64,000 nucleotides of DNA, taken from Asticcacaulis taihuensis (lineage in GTDB: Bacteria; Pseudomonadota; Alphaproteobacteria; Caulobacterales; Caulobacteraceae). Positions within the stretch are counted from its first letter, which is position 1, and every line of letters starts with the position of its first letter. The stretch is taken from contig NZ_FMTS01000005.1 of NCBI RefSeq assembly GCF_900100255.1, positions 186,001 to 250,000 on the forward strand. The letters run 5' to 3'. Made by a program: the position numbers and the translations under genes. Below, one piece after another: positions 2,541-37,802 of this stretch. The notes under the pieces are model-generated. The model searched no databases. It was not told where the DNA came from and was given only the letters and a program-made list of their open reading frames with translations.

Positions 2541-3731
2541 ATGGTGAACGCGCAACAGCGGCTGGCGGACCTGCGCGCCGAATATGAGGCCCTGATTGCG
2601 GAAGCCAATGCCCCGCAGCCGCGCAGCAACGGCATCTATCAGCGCTGGCAAAATCCGGTTGTTACAGCCGCCCATGTGCCGCTGGAATGGCGTTACGACT
2701 TCAACCCTGAGACCAATCCGTTCATGATGGAGCGGATGGGCATCAACGCCACTTTCAACGCCGGGGCGATGAAGTGGCAGGGGAAGTACATCGTTATGGT
2801 GCGCGTCGAGGGCGATGACCGAAAATCGTTCTTCGCCGTCGCCGAGAGCGCCACGGGCATCGATGGCTTCCGCTTCTGGCCGAAACCGGTGGTGCTGCCA
2901 CAGACAGAAGATCCCGACACCAATGTCTATGATATGCGCCTGACGCAGCACGCCGACGGCTGGATTTACGGCCTCTTCTGTACCGAGCGCAAGGACTTGA
3001 CCCAGCCGGATGACCTGTCGGCGGCGACGGCGCAGTGCGGCATTGCCCGCACGAAGGATCTGATCACCTGGGAGCGCCTGCCGGACCTGATCACCCATTC
3101 CGGCCAGCAACGCAATGTGGTGCTGCATCCCGAATTCATCGACGGCAAGTACGCCCTCTATACCCGCCCGCAGGATGGCTTTATCTCTGTCGGTTCCGGC
3201 GGCGGCATCGGTTGGGGCCTGACCGATGATATGACAAACGCGGTGATCGACCGTGAAGTGATCGTCGACAACAAGGTCTACCACACCATCAAGGAGATCA
3301 AGAACGGCCAGGGACCGGCGCCGATCAAAACGCCGGAAGGCTGGCTGCATCTGGCGCATGGTGTGCGCAATACGGCGGCGGGCCTGCGCTATGTGCTTTA
3401 CATGTTCATGACGGCGCTCGACGAACCCTGGAAGATCATCCATGCGCCGGGCGGGCACTTCATAGCGCCACAAGGAGCGGAGCGTGTCGGTGACGTGTCG
3501 AACGTCACCTTCGCCAACGGCTGGATCGCCGATGAGGACGGCAAGGTCTTCATCTATTACGCCTCGTCGGACACCCGCCTGCATGTGGCGACCTCGACCG
3601 TTGCGCAACTGGTCGATTACTGCCAGAACACCCCGGCTGATCCGCTGACCTCCGCGGCCTGCGTGCAGCAGCGTATCGATCTGATTGCCAAAAATGAGGC
3701 ATACAATGCTGCCTACACGGCGGCCAAATGA
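2541..3731 (+). CDS. 4-O-beta-D-mannosyl-D-glucose phosphorylase (GH130_1)
   Basis: A 396-residue cytoplasmic enzyme that fits subfamily 1 of GH130, which phosphorolyses beta-1,4-mannosyl-glucose to mannose 1-phosphate and glucose. Seen in the sequence: [17 protein letters not shown] near residue 65, the motif [10 protein letters not shown] with Asp131, which aligns in number with the known general acid of the Bacteroides enzyme, and a late [17 protein letters not shown] segment typical of the subfamily. The length matches the family. The start at 2541 has GGGAGACGAG upstream. The stop overlaps the start of the epimerase by four bases (ATGA), so the two are translationally coupled. Together they convert mannobiose to usable sugars. 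Confidence 0.9.
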
Positions 3732-4894
3732 AGCTGCGCGAAGACGCCCGTGCCGAAGGTCTGCGCCTACTCGACTGGTGGGCCAGCCATCTGGTCGATG
3801 ACTGCGGCGGCTTTTACGGCGAGGTCGATGCCGATGACCGGCCGGTGCCCGAGGCATCGAAAAGTATCATCCTCAATACACGCCTGCTGTGGTTTTTCAG
3901 CGCCATGGCGGGAAAGGGTGATGCGCGTGCGGCGGGGCTGGCCCGGCGTGCGGCGGACTATATCCGGACCTATTTCCATGATGCCGAACAGGGTGGCCTC
4001 TACTGGTTGCTGAAGGCGGACGGCCGCCCCGAAGACACCCGCAAGCAGGCCTATGCCCAAGCATTTGCGGTCTATGCCTTTGCCGAATATTATCACGCCA
4101 CCGGCGATGCGGCCGCGCTCACCTTTGCGCGCGACCTTCAGGCCCTGATCGAGGCGAAATACTGGGACTCCGAACGCGGTGGCTATATCGAAGCGCTTAA
4201 TCGCGCGTGGAATCCGCCGGCGGATCAGCGCCTGTCCGACAAAGACCTCGATGCGCCCAAGACCATGAACACGCACCTGCATGTGCTGGAAGCCTATAGC
4301 CGGCTGCATGGGGTAGCGCCGACAGAGGACACGCGCGCGGCCCTGTATCGTATTCTCACCGTGTTTCTCGATCGCTTTGTTGCACCAGATGGCCATCTGC
4401 GATTGTTCTTCGATATGGCGTGGAACGACCTGACGCTGTCGATCTCCTATGGTCACGATATCGAGGCCAGTTGGCTGATCTGGGAAGCGGCAGAAGCACT
4501 CGACGATAAGGCCCTGCTCGAACGCGCCCGGCCTATCGTGCTGGCCCTGGCCGGGACCGCGCGCCGCGAAGGCATGAGTGAGGGCGGCGCATTCAGCTAC
4601 GAAAAGAGCTTCGACGGCCATACCGATCCCGACGGTGAATGGTGGGAGCAGGCGGAAGCCCTGGTCGGTTTCGTCAATGCCTGGCAGATGACCGGCGAGG
4701 CGAACTGGCTGGAGGCCGCCGAAAAGGTCTGGGCCTATACGAAGACGCAATATGGCGCGGGCGGGGTGTCCGAATGGACCTGGTACGCCGCCTCAGCGTC
4801 AAAAGATAAGATCTATAAGGCGGGCCAATGGAAATGCCCGTATCATAACGGACGGGCGATGATTGAAGTGGCCCGCCAGTTGAGGAAGACCTAA
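3728..4894 (+). CDS. Cellobiose/mannobiose 2-epimerase (AGE superfamily)
   Basis: A 388-residue (alpha/alpha)6-barrel enzyme. Cellobiose 2-epimerases invert C2 of the reducing sugar, turning beta-1,4-mannobiose into mannosyl-glucose, which is the substrate of the phosphorylase encoded just upstream. The three catalytic histidines of the family can be placed: [10 protein letters not shown] (His183/His185), [10 protein letters not shown] (His243) and [11 protein letters not shown] (His373), nearly the same numbering as in the Ruminococcus enzyme. Its ATG overlaps the phosphorylase stop codon. The linkage with a GH130_1 gene is the textbook arrangement of the mannobiose pathway and separates this protein from N-acylglucosamine 2-epimerases and from sulfoquinovose-type isomerases. 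Confidence 0.9.
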
Positions 4895-32945: not shown

Positions 32946-34259
32946 TTATTCGGCGGCATCCCTCTGTGCGGCGGCATCATAGCCCAGGTGCGCCAGCAGA
33001 TCCTTTATCTTGATCGAGGCGAAGTGGATCGATGAGTCGGCCACACCATAGGGCATGAATATCCATTCGCCGCAGCGCAGGGCGCCGCAGGTATAGATGA
33101 CGTTAGGCACATAGCCTTCACGATTGTCTTCGGAAGGCGACAATAAAGCCTCCTTTGAGCGCGCCAGGACGATGCGCGGGTCATTCTTGTCCAGCAGGGC
33201 GGCGCCAAGCGAATAGCGCCTGACAGGCCCGACGCCGTGGGTCAGCACCAGCCAGCCCTCATCCAGTTCGATCGGCGAACCGCAATTCCCCATCTGGATC
33301 AGTTCCCACGGCGCCTCCGGCCCCAGGATCTTGTCGCCATTGTTCCAGGTGTATTTATCGTCGCTCTCAAGATAGAAGATGCTCTCGTGATCGAGCCGTC
33401 CGACCGCCGCCCAGCGGCCGTTGATCTTGCGCGGAAAGAAGCCCAGTCCTTTGTGCTGCGAGGCGGCGCCGCGAAACGGCGTCAGGCGGAACGAGCGGAA
33501 ATCTGAGGTTTCAAAGCATTCGCAGGCAATTTCACGGCCGTTATAGGCCGTATAGGTGCCCATGATGGCCGAGGCGCCGTTTTCATCGATGAACTTGACC
33601 ATGCGCAGGTCTTCCAGGCCGTTGGTCTGCGAGCGCGTTACCGGAAACAGCACGGTTTCGGAAATCGGGCACGCCTGATGGCCATGAACGGTGATGGCGC
33701 CGTCAAGCGGCGCATTGCCAAGAGGCTTGGCGGCGACGGCAAAATCGGCTTCCGGCTTCAGTTCCATCGTGCCGTCCTTGTAAAAGGTGCCTTCGCGGAA
33801 GGAGATGGTCGAGATATGGCCTTCGCCGACCGTGCGCGTCGACATGATGAAATTGGTGCCGCCATTGGCATTGCTCTGGTCGGGATGCACCACCACGCTG
33901 GGGTTCATGACCGCGGCCGCCTGATAGCTGTATTCATGGCAGAAATAGGCACCGATCAGGGCCATATGGTCCTCGTCCAGGTGCTCCATGCCGCCCTGCA
34001 TGGCCTGCATGGCCTTGAAGCGATCCAGGAAGATACCGCGCGTCTGCCAGTGCCGGCCGGTAAAGTCGCGGTTGACGATTTCAAGCTCCTCCCTGACTGT
34101 ATCGGGCGACATGGCCGAGATCGCATTGCAGATGCGGGTGACGCGAGACATCGCCCCCATGGCGCTGTCTCGCGGATTGACGGAAATCGAAAACGGCAGG
34201 ATGACGACGCGGTCCGGATTGGAGCGCAGCATTGTCGGGCTGATCAGCATGTCGGTCAT
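32946..34259 (-). CDS. GH130 family glycosidase/phosphorylase, second type
   Basis: A 437-residue cytoplasmic protein of the GH130 five-bladed propeller family, distinct from the GH130_1 enzyme at 2541. Recognisable parts are NGLEDLRMVKF (with the catalytic-site Asp of the family), GTYTAYNGREI, FFPRKINGRWAAVGRLD, ESIFYLESDDKYTWN, IQMGNCGSPIELDEGWLVLT and VPNVIYTCGA. The 100-residue N-terminal extension (ILPFSISVNPRDSAMGAMSR) is helical and typical of a branch found beside glycosyltransferases. It may cleave or phosphorolyse beta-mannosides, including beta-1,2-linked ones, but the substrate is not shown by the sequence. It follows the two-domain GT4 gene after 90 bases on the same strand and probably works on the same glycan. 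Confidence 0.85.
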   Translation of the reverse strand: MTDMLISPTMLRSNPDRVVILPFSISVNPRDSAMGAMSRVTRICNAISAMSPDTVREELEIVNRDFTGRHWQTRGIFLDRFKAMQAMQGGMEHLDEDHMALIGAYFCHEYSYQAAAVMNPSVVVHPDQSNANGGTNFIMSTRTVGEGHISTISFREGTFYKDGTMELKPEADFAVAAKPLGNAPLDGAITVHGHQACPISETVLFPVTRSQTNGLEDLRMVKFIDENGASAIMGTYTAYNGREIACECFETSDFRSFRLTPFRGAASQHKGLGFFPRKINGRWAAVGRLDHESIFYLESDDKYTWNNGDKILGPEAPWELIQMGNCGSPIELDEGWLVLTHGVGPVRRYSLGAALLDKNDPRIVLARSKEALLSPSEDNREGYVPNVIYTCGALRCGEWIFMPYGVADSSIHFASIKIKDLLAHLGYDAAAQRDAAE

Positions 34260-34349
34260 TTTGTAACCCCTCAGATGGGCAGTTTAAGCAACGCAGATGG
34301 CGGGGCGCCTGCGCGACCCGCCTGACTTGTGATATCTGTATCCAGCGGA

Positions 34350-36653
34350 CTACAGGTCAGCCTTCAGGGCCGCCCAGCTCATCGGATACGAGAGGATGGA
34401 TTCCGCGCCCTGGTTGAAATTGAGGCCGTTGGGATTGAGGCCGTCATAGCAGCCGCCTTCGCCATCGAGCAGCGACAGGCCGGCGGTGTTTTCGCCATGG
34501 AACCAGGCAAAGGCGCGCAGGGCTTCTTCCCGCCACGAATGGTCGCCGGTAATACGCCAGGCGCTTAAAGATGCGTCGATTGTGGCCAGAACCTCCAGCG
34601 GCTGCTGGTCGTAGAGTGGGTGATCCGGGCCGTCGTCGGAGAATTTGGAATTGGGGATCGGCACGAAGACGCCATCCCTTATCTGCTTTTTCATCAGCCA
34701 TTTTTGCGCCGTCAGGCCGTCTTCAACCATGTCCGGCTCGGCCAGGAAGGCGCCGCCCAGAATGAGCCCCTCACTGATGCGCGCATTGTCATAGGCCAGG
34801 TCAGGTTCGAACCACTCGTGCCCGGCACGCGCATGAGCTTTGAAGCGCTGGTGCAGATCGCGCGTGAAATACCGGACAAGCACCTGCATTTCCTGGCCAT
34901 CGCCGAACACGCCGAAGGCGCGGACCAGCGACTTGATCATGACGGCGCGCGACCGCAGGCTGGTCCAGCTTTCGACCTTTGGCAGGATCTGCGTGCCGAG
35001 ATCGCAGGCCCACCGCCTCAGGTCTTCCGGCAGGCCAGAGCGGGCGACATCGACCAGAGCTTCGCAGGAGCGGGCATTGCAGTCATCAAAACCGCCGTCA
35101 TCGAGCCAGTCGCGGCCATAGGACATGAAATTACGGAAACTTTCGCCATTCCAGGCGTGATTCAGGAAGGCGGCATACCGATAAGCCAGCGAGACCTGCC
35201 CGGCGGTCAGTGGCATGAGGCGCGACTGCCGGGCCACCAGGGAAAGCGCGCGGGCATTGTCATCGGCACAATAACCATGCTGGCGATCCGGCAGGCGGTA
35301 CTTGCCATGCTGGAAAATGCCGCAGTCGTCGGTCATGCGTTCGATAGCGGCCCAGGATGGCGGCGCCGGCAGGGCGGCGGCATGGCGCTTCGGGGCTTCA
35401 TAATGGGCCACGTCATCGGTGGCGCGGGCGACATAGGCGCCGGCCACGGCGGACCAGCGCGAGGGCTGGGCGGCCAAATAGGCGCGCATCGACATGTCCG
35501 CGCGGATCTTGTCGGAGGCCAGCAGTTTGGTAATCGCTTCGGCGAACGCCTTAGTGTCATGGAAGTCGCACAGGATGCCGACGCCATCGGCCAGAGCCTC
35601 CACCGCGTGCCAGTAGGGCGTCGAAACTGTCGGGCGGCCGAGCGCCAGGGCATAGGACAGTGTACCTGAGGTGATCTGGGTTTCGGTCAGATAGGGCGTG
35701 ACATAGACATCCGTCGCCTGAAGAATATCGATCAGGTCGTTGTCGCTGATAAAGCGGTTGATGAAGCGGATATTGTCCTCGACGCCCAGTTCGCGCGCCA
35801 TGGCTTTCAGGCCGTCGCGGTATTTCTCGCCTTCGTGCCTGACCAGGTGAGGATGCGTGGCGCCGATAACGAGATAAACCACGTCAGGGCAGGTCTTGCG
35901 GATGTCCGGCAGGGCGGCGATGACCGTTTCAATACCCTTATTGGGAGACAACAGGCCAAAAGTGGTCAGGGTCTTCTTGCCGGCCAGGTGCAGGTGTGGC
36001 TTGAATTCGGCGGTATCGCGCAGAGGCCGAGACGGCGCGCCGTGCGGGACGATGCTGATCTGCTCCGGTTTGACGCCATAGACGCGCTGGAGGATATCAG
36101 CGCCTTTCTGTGCCATGGTGACCAGGGTCGAGGACAGGCGGATCAGCGCCTGCATGACCCGCTTCTGTTCGTCGTTCGGCTTTTCCAGGATCGTGTGCAG
36201 GGTGGTGACGATCGGGAAATTGACGCGCTCCAGGCATTCGATCAGATGGGCGCCGGACGGGCCGCCATAGATGCCGAATTCATGCTGTACGAAAAGCACC
36301 TGCGTGCCGTCGGCATTGAGTGTTTCGGCGAGATCGCGGTAGGCGGCGATGTCATCCTGCGGAATCTGGTGCGTGACTTCGAGCGGATAATCGTAGGTCG
36401 CGCCGGGATCATTCATGGCGATGACGTCCCAGTCGGTATTCGGCAGGGCCTTGCTCAGGCAGGCATACATGTCACGGGTAAAGGTGGCCAGGCCGCACTG
36501 GCGCGGCGGGAAATTGCCGATGATCGCGGCTTTGGACAGGACGACATCTTTGCCCGACAGGCTGTCATTCAGCGTCGTGGCGATGCTTTGCGGCAAACCT
36601 TCCGTTTCAACTTCGGCATCATGGGCAATTTCGAAACTGTTGGCCTGCAGCAT
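34350..36653 (-). CDS. Two-domain glycosyltransferase (GT4 plus alpha/alpha-toroid C-terminal domain)
   Basis: A 767-residue cytoplasmic protein. Residues 40-400 are a GT-B glycosyltransferase of family 4: NFPPRQCGLATFTRDMY, VLFVQHEFGIYGG, FGLLSPNKGIETVIAA and, near the donor site, TPYLTETQITSGTLSYALAL with Glu. Residues 430-767 are helical with repeated aromatic/glycine motifs (HGYCADDNARALSLVARQ, GGFDDCNARSCEALVDVA, GHEWFEPDLAYDNARISEGL, CYDGLNPNGLNFNQGAES), as in six-helical-barrel glycoside-processing domains. Such fusions are usually encoded next to a GH130 gene, as here. A synthase with a built-in trimming or binding domain is a reasonable inference. The product, perhaps a storage or stress mannan, is unknown. 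Confidence 0.85.
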   Translation of the reverse strand: MLQANSFEIAHDAEVETEGLPQSIATTLNDSLSGKDVVLSKAAIIGNFPPRQCGLATFTRDMYACLSKALPNTDWDVIAMNDPGATYDYPLEVTHQIPQDDIAAYRDLAETLNADGTQVLFVQHEFGIYGGPSGAHLIECLERVNFPIVTTLHTILEKPNDEQKRVMQALIRLSSTLVTMAQKGADILQRVYGVKPEQISIVPHGAPSRPLRDTAEFKPHLHLAGKKTLTTFGLLSPNKGIETVIAALPDIRKTCPDVVYLVIGATHPHLVRHEGEKYRDGLKAMARELGVEDNIRFINRFISDNDLIDILQATDVYVTPYLTETQITSGTLSYALALGRPTVSTPYWHAVEALADGVGILCDFHDTKAFAEAITKLLASDKIRADMSMRAYLAAQPSRWSAVAGAYVARATDDVAHYEAPKRHAAALPAPPSWAAIERMTDDCGIFQHGKYRLPDRQHGYCADDNARALSLVARQSRLMPLTAGQVSLAYRYAAFLNHAWNGESFRNFMSYGRDWLDDGGFDDCNARSCEALVDVARSGLPEDLRRWACDLGTQILPKVESWTSLRSRAVMIKSLVRAFGVFGDGQEMQVLVRYFTRDLHQRFKAHARAGHEWFEPDLAYDNARISEGLILGGAFLAEPDMVEDGLTAQKWLMKKQIRDGVFVPIPNSKFSDDGPDHPLYDQQPLEVLATIDASLSAWRITGDHSWREEALRAFAWFHGENTAGLSLLDGEGGCYDGLNPNGLNFNQGAESILSYPMSWAALKADL

Positions 36654-36853: not shown

Positions 36854-37570
36854 TCAGGCGGCGCGAACAGGTGTGAAAAAGCTGTTGGCGGTCAGTCGGC
36901 CGGTGCGGGGATTATCGGTCAGGCGGGCGCCATCGAACAGGGCGCAGTGAAGCACGTGGCTGCAATAAATCACCAGACGGTTGAATTTTGGCGCGACTGT
37001 TTCCAGCAGTTCGTAATTGGGCGTATCTGGCCCGGTATAACCGGTCAGGCGGTCACCCAGGGCGTCCAGTTCGCTGGCAACCATCGCCATATAGGCTTCG
37101 CGGCGGGTACGGTCGATCGATTCAAAGCCTGTGGGTATGTGCCGGAAAAAGCCGGTGCCGCCGGCCTGGTCACGGCCGAGATAATGCACCATGGCCAGGC
37201 AGCGCGGATCGGGCTGGTCATAATGCGGAATCTTTTGCAGCGGCTGCATTTCCTCGGCGGGCAGGGTCGACAGCGCGAAGAAGGCGCGGGAGAGCAGCCG
37301 GCCGTCACCGATGTCGAAAGCGCGCATCAGGCTGGGACGCAGGATCGGCAGCAGGGTTTGAAGATAGGCCGGTGGCAGCGGCGCGTTGAGGCCGGGATAG
37401 AAGGTGGCCTCCGGTGCCGAAAAGGAGGTTTGCGCGGCGGCTTCAACCAACTGTTCCGGGTTGAGCAGAACATCGTCTATGACGATGAGCGGGTGCAATT
37501 CTTCGCCATAATGGCGAAGTTGCACGCGGGCGGCGGGATTGATCTGGATAACGAGATCGGCAGCAGACAT
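36854..37570 (-). CDS. DUF6445 family protein
   Basis: A 238-residue protein starting at ATG 37570 (AGGATC upstream); a longer frame to 37714 reads through non-coding-looking sequence. The N-terminal strand pair (LHPLIVIDDVLLNPEQLVEA) and a centre KIPHYDQPDPRCLAMVHYLG, followed by TGFFRH and, near the end, KFNRLVIYCSHVLHCALF, resemble the DUF6445 family. Its double-stranded beta-helix-like pattern with His/Asp suggests a 2-oxoglutarate-type fold. Genes of this family often accompany tryptophan halogenases, SapC and TonB receptors for saccharides in Caulobacterales, none of which is here. Enzymatic activity is not established. Confidence 0.75.
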   Translation of the reverse strand: MSAADLVIQINPAARVQLRHYGEELHPLIVIDDVLLNPEQLVEAAAQTSFSAPEATFYPGLNAPLPPAYLQTLLPILRPSLMRAFDIGDGRLLSRAFFALSTLPAEEMQPLQKIPHYDQPDPRCLAMVHYLGRDQAGGTGFFRHIPTGFESIDRTRREAYMAMVASELDALGDRLTGYTGPDTPNYELLETVAPKFNRLVIYCSHVLHCALFDGARLTDNPRTGRLTANSFFTPVRAA

Positions 37571-37802
37571 GCCCGATCCTAGCGCAGATTCCACGACTCT
37601 GCCCGTGATTTTTGAAGTGATTTTTAATGCACGAAATTTTGAACGGCAAAAATGCTGCGTCGCAATATGGATGCTTGACGCGGATAACGGCCGCTGACAG
37701 GTTTCAACTCCCAATGTGCAGATTAAATGTCACAACCAGATGACATACTGCCGTCATTACCGAGGCCAGACCCTTAACCTCAGATGCTCACAGGAGCCGC
37801 CA

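Follow-up and report, generated by a model that had tools for sequence, protein, structure and literature searches.

A conserved glycosyltransferase and GH130 gene pair

In a 64,000-nucleotide stretch of the Asticcacaulis taihuensis genome (contig NZ_FMTS01000005.1, positions 186,001 to 250,000; hereafter the window, whose own numbering is used throughout), two adjacent genes encode a glycosyltransferase (GT) fused to a helical domain and a protein of family GH130. We find that the two genes are conserved together across phyla, with mannose-supply genes beside them in several relatives of this soil and water bacterium. We propose, at what we regard as even chances, that their products build a mannose-based glycan in the cytoplasm and later recycle it, with GDP-mannose (GDP-Man) as the feed and a stress or carbon reserve, or a protectant, as the function.

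All features of the pair lie on the minus strand. The GT gene (34350..36653) encodes 767 amino acids and has orthologs in 25 of 25 Asticcacaulis genomes. Its GT-B half (residues ~40–415, 35409..36536) matches Glycos_transf_1 (PF00534; 80.3 bits, cut-off 26.4, residues 216–392) as well as PF13692 and PF13439, and is followed by a C-terminal toroid-like domain (residues 416–767, 34353..35408); residues 1–36 are poorly conserved. A spacer of exactly 90 bp (34260..34349), with a Shine-Dalgarno-like GAGGGG before the ATG, leads to the GH130 gene (32946..34259), whose 437-amino-acid product matches Glyco_hydro_130 (PF04041; 95.7 bits, cut-off 26, residues 200–422). All Pfam matches exceed their curated cut-offs. 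An earlier note on this DNA had described the same open reading frames (ORFs), sizes and gap, and these stand; the toroid label that it gave is supported, not proven, and the N-terminal helices that it ascribed to the GH130 appear only in a model of low confidence (see below). Compared with the closest relative (90% GT identity), changed codons are mostly synonymous in both the GH130 (107 synonymous, 9 non-synonymous) and the GT (205 synonymous, 75 non-synonymous), indicating that both genes are real and under purifying selection. Neither protein has a hydrophobic N-terminus, and for this reason both are most likely cytoplasmic.

Both genes are present in 25 of 25 Asticcacaulis genomes tested, and their distribution is patchy in Sphingomonadales, Rhizobiales and Gammaproteobacteria. 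Of the Pseudomonadota genomes sampled, 19 of 399 carry the GT and 18 of 398 the GH130 of the pair, with both in 17 (hypergeometric P ~1e-26, a figure that still includes genome relatedness). The GT-only cases are incomplete genomes with matches near contig ends, and the sole GH130-only match is a fragment. Linkage was counted over the 51 locus records that span 7 kb or more, some species contributing more than one. A GH130 lies near the GT in 50 of these, the lone exception stopping at a contig edge; it is placed at most 600 bases downstream on the same strand in 45 records, upstream on the same strand in 3 and on the opposite strand in 1, and in many orthologous loci the two genes overlap or nearly touch. 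Plasmid searches recovered the pair in Rhizobiaceae, Devosia, Sphingomonadaceae, Deinococcus and Ilyobacter as well, indicating that the unit moves between phyla. The view that the two genes are one functional unit, which the earlier note's pairing of them implies, is strongly supported by the pair's conservation across phyla.

The GH130 protein is predicted to be a beta-1,2-type phosphorylase

The best profile matches of the GH130 protein among solved structures were Teth514_1788, Teth514_1789 and Lin0857 (153, 150 and 141 bits), together with Uhgb_MS, all of which act on beta-1,2-mannosides (PMC8950772). A tree built from the catalytic region places the GH130 of the pair and its orthologs in a clade of their own (support 100/100) apart from all characterised enzymes tested. 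The protein shares with Teth514_1788, Teth514_1789 and Lin0857 an aligned catalytic Asp, the beta-1,2 Lys and basic phosphate-site residues, but differs from them in its separate clade, its conserved extension of about 117 residues and its obligate GT/toroid-fusion partner.

The predicted catalytic acid, D217 in the motif GLED (33609..33611), is invariant and equivalent by motif to Asp142 of BT3780 (PMC4599007). K270 (33450..33452), also invariant, falls in a column that holds Lys in Teth514_1788, Teth514_1789, Lin0857 and Uhgb_MS and Arg in beta-1,4 enzymes. Lys199 of BT3780 marks beta-1,2 specificity (PMC4599007); its mapping to K270 is made through the Teth514 and Lin0857 columns because BT3780 itself lies outside the alignment. 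R288 and H341 (33237..33398), at least 90% conserved, align with the Arg and His of known phosphorylases at phosphate-site positions where GH130 hydrolases have Glu (PMC4599007). K270, too, aligns with basic residues of those enzymes. As these positions stay basic, the GH130 of the pair is predicted to act by phosphorolysis and not by hydrolysis. Action on beta-1,4-mannosyl-glucose, which as sole activity the earlier note had named as fatal to its proposal, is disfavoured by the clade and by the residues.

The N-terminal extension (residues 1–117, 33909..34259) is conserved in the clade, with R39, H70, L101 and G103 invariant in the ortholog alignment. It is helical in a predicted model of low confidence (predicted local distance difference test, pLDDT, 39); a fold-based assignment was dropped on account of this score, and the solved five-bladed beta-propeller relatives were matched by sequence alone.

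The glycosyltransferase half lacks the motif of retaining GT4 enzymes

GT4 enzymes retain configuration, GH130 phosphorylases invert at beta-mannosides, and GH130 does not cut alpha-mannosides. An ordinary GT4 supplied with GDP-alpha-mannose would make alpha-mannosides and hence could not form the bond that GH130 cuts. This mismatch went unnoticed when the earlier note assigned synthesis of one glycan to the GT and its turnover to the GH130, a division of labour that is nevertheless plausible. It follows that either the GT inverts, or each protein acts on a bond of its own within the same glycan.

By sequence the GT half is similar to MshA and PimA, and a Foldseek search returned MshA, BshA and PimA (E 1e-10 to 3e-12, from a modest model with mean pLDDT 68). 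It shares with these retaining enzymes the GT-B fold and the Pfam GT4/GT1 domains, but differs from them at the active site as well as in carrying the toroid. In alignment to MshA and PimA, the EX7E site is replaced by Q326-x7-Y334 (35652..35678): among 45 divergent homologs the Gln is invariant and the second position is Tyr or Phe. No conserved acid was found at either position in these homologs, even when the alignment was shifted by HMMER-allowed gaps. The MshA Arg that precedes a conserved Lys is likewise an invariant Leu. A companion GT4 encoded in the same clusters retains EPFGLSVVE and GRxHPDKG and provides an internal control for the loss of the motif. We slightly favour inversion over action on different bonds because the residues lost are those tied to retention; the loss of EX7E makes inversion possible and reopens the question of stereochemistry without settling it.

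The C-terminal toroid-like domain has no Pfam family

No Pfam family was found for the C-terminal 352 residues. AlphaFold models this half as entirely helical (pLDDT mostly 80–90 in helices). Its only solved relative is YPO2471 (PDB 7tem; profile match E 1.2e-16), an uncharacterised Yersinia protein on which our search of the open literature yielded no paper. The model and the profile match support, and do not prove, the name (alpha/alpha)-toroid. YPO2471 shares the DDxAR, Y-N, FDG and N-x-N-x-GAES motifs with the toroid but is free-standing, annotated as exported and not fused to a GT. In a sample of 299 Pseudomonadota genomes, the toroid is always fused to the GT half. Its invariant motifs are HGYCxDDN, WFE, YDN, DQQ, DG and NxGxES, and across 37 diverse members 28 columns do not vary, many of them acidic or aromatic. 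Judged by this conservation, the domain is more suggestive of a pocket for catalysis or sugar binding than of a scaffold.

Two exceptional arrangements were seen. One Asticcacaulis genome (G013; L103:8384-10719) carries GT and toroid as separate ORFs split by a stop, through gene fission or sequence error, and toroid-less homologs of the GT half with a QxTSGTL motif (L089:9140-10402, L090:8518-10356) are found in Sphingomonadaceae, with BON and universal stress genes close by.

Orthologous loci carry mannose-supply and stress genes

On plasmid pBAR3 of Sphingomonas bisphenolicum, the gene order is groES, groEL, mannose-1-phosphate guanylyltransferase (GMP), a mannose-6-phosphate isomerase-like gene, GT, GH130 and phosphomannomutase. 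The GMPs of pBAR3 and pNXO2 score 397 and 396 bits against TIGR01479 (curated cut-off 373) and also match PF22640. Nine loci (L066, L071, L079, L080, L082, L083, L084, L086 and L113) have an isomerase-like gene linked to the GT, often with an overlap of a few bases; the encoded proteins score 50 to 70 bits, under the TIGR00218 cut-off of 116, so that the label mannose-6-phosphate isomerase reflects annotation and a partial match. The companion GT4 of a gamma-proteobacterial locus is fused to a mannose-6-phosphate isomerase cupin (PF01050, 117 bits), and a HAD-IIB protein in the pNXO2 island matches the eukaryotic phosphomannomutase model (35.3, cut-off 22.4). The Ilyobacter and gamma loci share the order GT4, short GH130, long GH130, GT/toroid. 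The short companions have Arg at the beta-1,2 marker position, and for this reason we did not accept their naming by NF050092 as proof of beta-1,2 specificity.

The gene order in orthologous operons supports mannose as the sugar handled by the pair. The earlier note had left the product as a mannoside or other glycan; the mannoside part of this predicted product is supported by these supply genes. We infer that GDP-Man is the donor supplied because GMP is present in the orthologous operons; a GMP gene is also encoded elsewhere in the A. taihuensis genome.

Several plasmids carry the unit among genes for GroES/GroEL, Hsp20, DnaK/GrpE, universal stress protein and Dps. A GlgA match above the curated cut-off was absent from 24 of the 25 Asticcacaulis genomes, all 25 of which carry the pair; counted in such matches, GlgA absence is only a weak correlate. 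A reserve or protectant role fits this stress-gene context and the GlgA absence, and is not proven by them. An EcfG promoter upstream of the GT was considered and dropped, a loose motif being present in only 6 of 90 upstream regions, at inconsistent positions, and being absent from that region of the window. The adjacent entries "Glycosyltransferase" and "Glycosidases" (#1750/#1751) of the Sphingomonas melonis EcfG regulon were not used, as the label may mean GH13.

A proposed mannose-based pathway and its alternatives

In the pathway that we propose, fructose 6-phosphate would be converted through mannose 6-phosphate and mannose 1-phosphate (Man1P) to GDP-Man by enzymes encoded in the operons of relatives or elsewhere in the A. 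taihuensis genome. The GT half would take mannose from GDP-Man and extend an oligo- or polysaccharide with it, and the toroid on the same polypeptide may bind or trim the growing glycan. The GH130 would phosphorolyse terminal beta-mannosyl residues, most likely beta-1,2, to alpha-Man1P, regaining the sugar phosphate without ATP. For both enzymes to share one bond the transferase would have to invert, as its non-canonical active site may permit. The likely role would be that of a carbon reserve or protectant under stress or starvation, comparable to the mannogen of Leishmania, a beta-1,2-mannan intracellular reserve handled by GT108 mannosyltransferase-phosphorylases (PMC8950772). The proposed logic is the same, with GDP-Man as the source of an intracellular beta-1,2-mannan that a GH130-like fold returns to Man1P, but the GT108 propeller does both jobs in Leishmania (PMC8950772), whereas here the GT-B/toroid protein would be the synthase. 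Only tentatively do we extend this to a bacterial mannogen in the full sense: an intracellular beta-1,2-mannan reserve, made by a GT4-fold enzyme that has become inverting and bears a new toroid, recycled through a GH130 subfamily that is new as well, dispersed horizontally by stress-tolerance plasmids and standing in for glycogen in the absence of GlgA.

Several observations weigh against the proposed pathway. Other GT4-fold enzymes are retaining, and without EX7E the catalysis of this one could instead be altered or gone. The sister relation of the GH130 clade to Lin0857/Uhgb_MS is weakly supported (80/80), and the protein falls far below the NCBIfam equivalog thresholds of NF050092 (129.8 against 550 bits) and NF052550 (112.4 against 450 bits). 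Within Asticcacaulis no mannose gene adjoins the pair, and the search upstream of the window GT gave no EcfG-type stress promoter. Finally, a Thermoanaerobacter cluster in which two GH130 genes, a GMP and a GT4 also stand together was taken by its authors to salvage beta-1,2-mannan brought in from outside (PMC4264767).

One alternative is such salvage, in which the pair would process imported beta-mannosides and the GT would spend GDP-Man on an envelope glycan. Chiku et al. read that similar cluster as salvage; they found no source of 1,2-beta-oligomannan in Thermoanaerobacter (PMC4264767). Their cluster differs from the present loci in having an ABC transporter and a GH5, and no toroid fusion is mentioned for it (PMC4264767). 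The genes conserved with the pair in the annotated loci include neither a sugar importer nor a secreted hydrolase, except for a sugar ABC transporter near the Devosia locus, and the commonest partner is the isomerase-like gene, which starts from fructose 6-phosphate; we consider salvage very unlikely. The stress-island context would also suit a small soluble mannoside, either a compatible solute or a mannosylated metabolite, made by the GT and phosphorolysed by the GH130, with the toroid performing a further reaction, hydrolysis or epimerisation for example. The many invariant acids and aromatics of the toroid do resemble an active site, and in Rhizobium daejeonense the pair is followed by an AGE-family epimerase gene. 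Two adjacent GH130 genes, however, are present in Ilyobacter and the gamma loci, an arrangement that in Thermoanaerobacter serves different oligomannan chain lengths (PMC4264767), and a small product seems unlikely.

The two enzymes may also work on opposite anomers, the GT as a retaining alpha-mannosyltransferase that makes a primer or alpha backbone, and the GH130, its reaction being reversible like those of phosphorylases generally, adding or removing beta-1,2-mannose caps by way of Man1P as both synthase and phosphorylase. The GT-B half is indeed most like retaining enzymes (MshA, BshA and PimA), and Uhgb_MS, a GH130 close to the clade, adds beta-1,2-mannose to alpha-1,2-mannobiose (PMC8950772). 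The residues typical of retaining GT4 enzymes are lost in 45 of 45 homologs, which leaves this arrangement doubtful, if the most serious of the three competitors to the proposed pathway.

Other GH130 genes and neighbours of the pair

A different GH130_1 at 2541, reported in the earlier note, is confirmed: window positions 2541–3731 encode a clear GH130_1 (E 6e-180 to BfMGP) of the beta-mannosyl-glucose phosphorylase type. Together with an AGE-family protein closest to the cellobiose 2-epimerase EpiA and an SSF symporter (2541–4894), it is part of a standard mannan-oligosaccharide catabolic set, a plant-mannan pathway separate from the pair. The idea that the GH130 of the pair duplicates this gene was rejected, as the latter is a GH130_1 beside a cellobiose 2-epimerase-like gene.

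A third GH130 of the genome (L091:9098-10216; G000:C9:154615-155364) encodes 372 amino acids, sits on a long branch and has NKD at the beta-1,2 marker position; by eye, no mannose-pathway genes were recognised among the ORFs listed around it. Stand-alone relatives of the long GH130 occur on an Asticcacaulis plasmid (L067:11992-13293), where Phe replaces the phosphate-site His (LFFGVG) in what is possibly a hydrolase or a non-catalytic paralogue, and in a copper/metal-resistance stretch of plasmid pISP0 (L070:11959-13269). Near-identical scores suggest that the pISP0 gene is also present on several Sphingobium, Rhizorhabdus and Novosphingobium plasmids. Directly upstream of the window GT, a DUF6445 protein (PF20043, 240 bits; 36854–37714) keeps its position in several Asticcacaulis species.

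Significance

In the open literature that we searched, with subscription papers outside its scope, we found no description of this bacterial GT/toroid and GH130 pair. It offers a candidate synthase for the bacterial GH130 beta-1,2-mannoside phosphorylases, so far without a known endogenous substrate. The locus also provides a toroid domain that Pfam does not cover, and an example of a carbohydrate module travelling on plasmids in the company of heat-shock genes. With its GT, the possibility that a GT4-fold enzyme changes stereochemistry has a natural test case.

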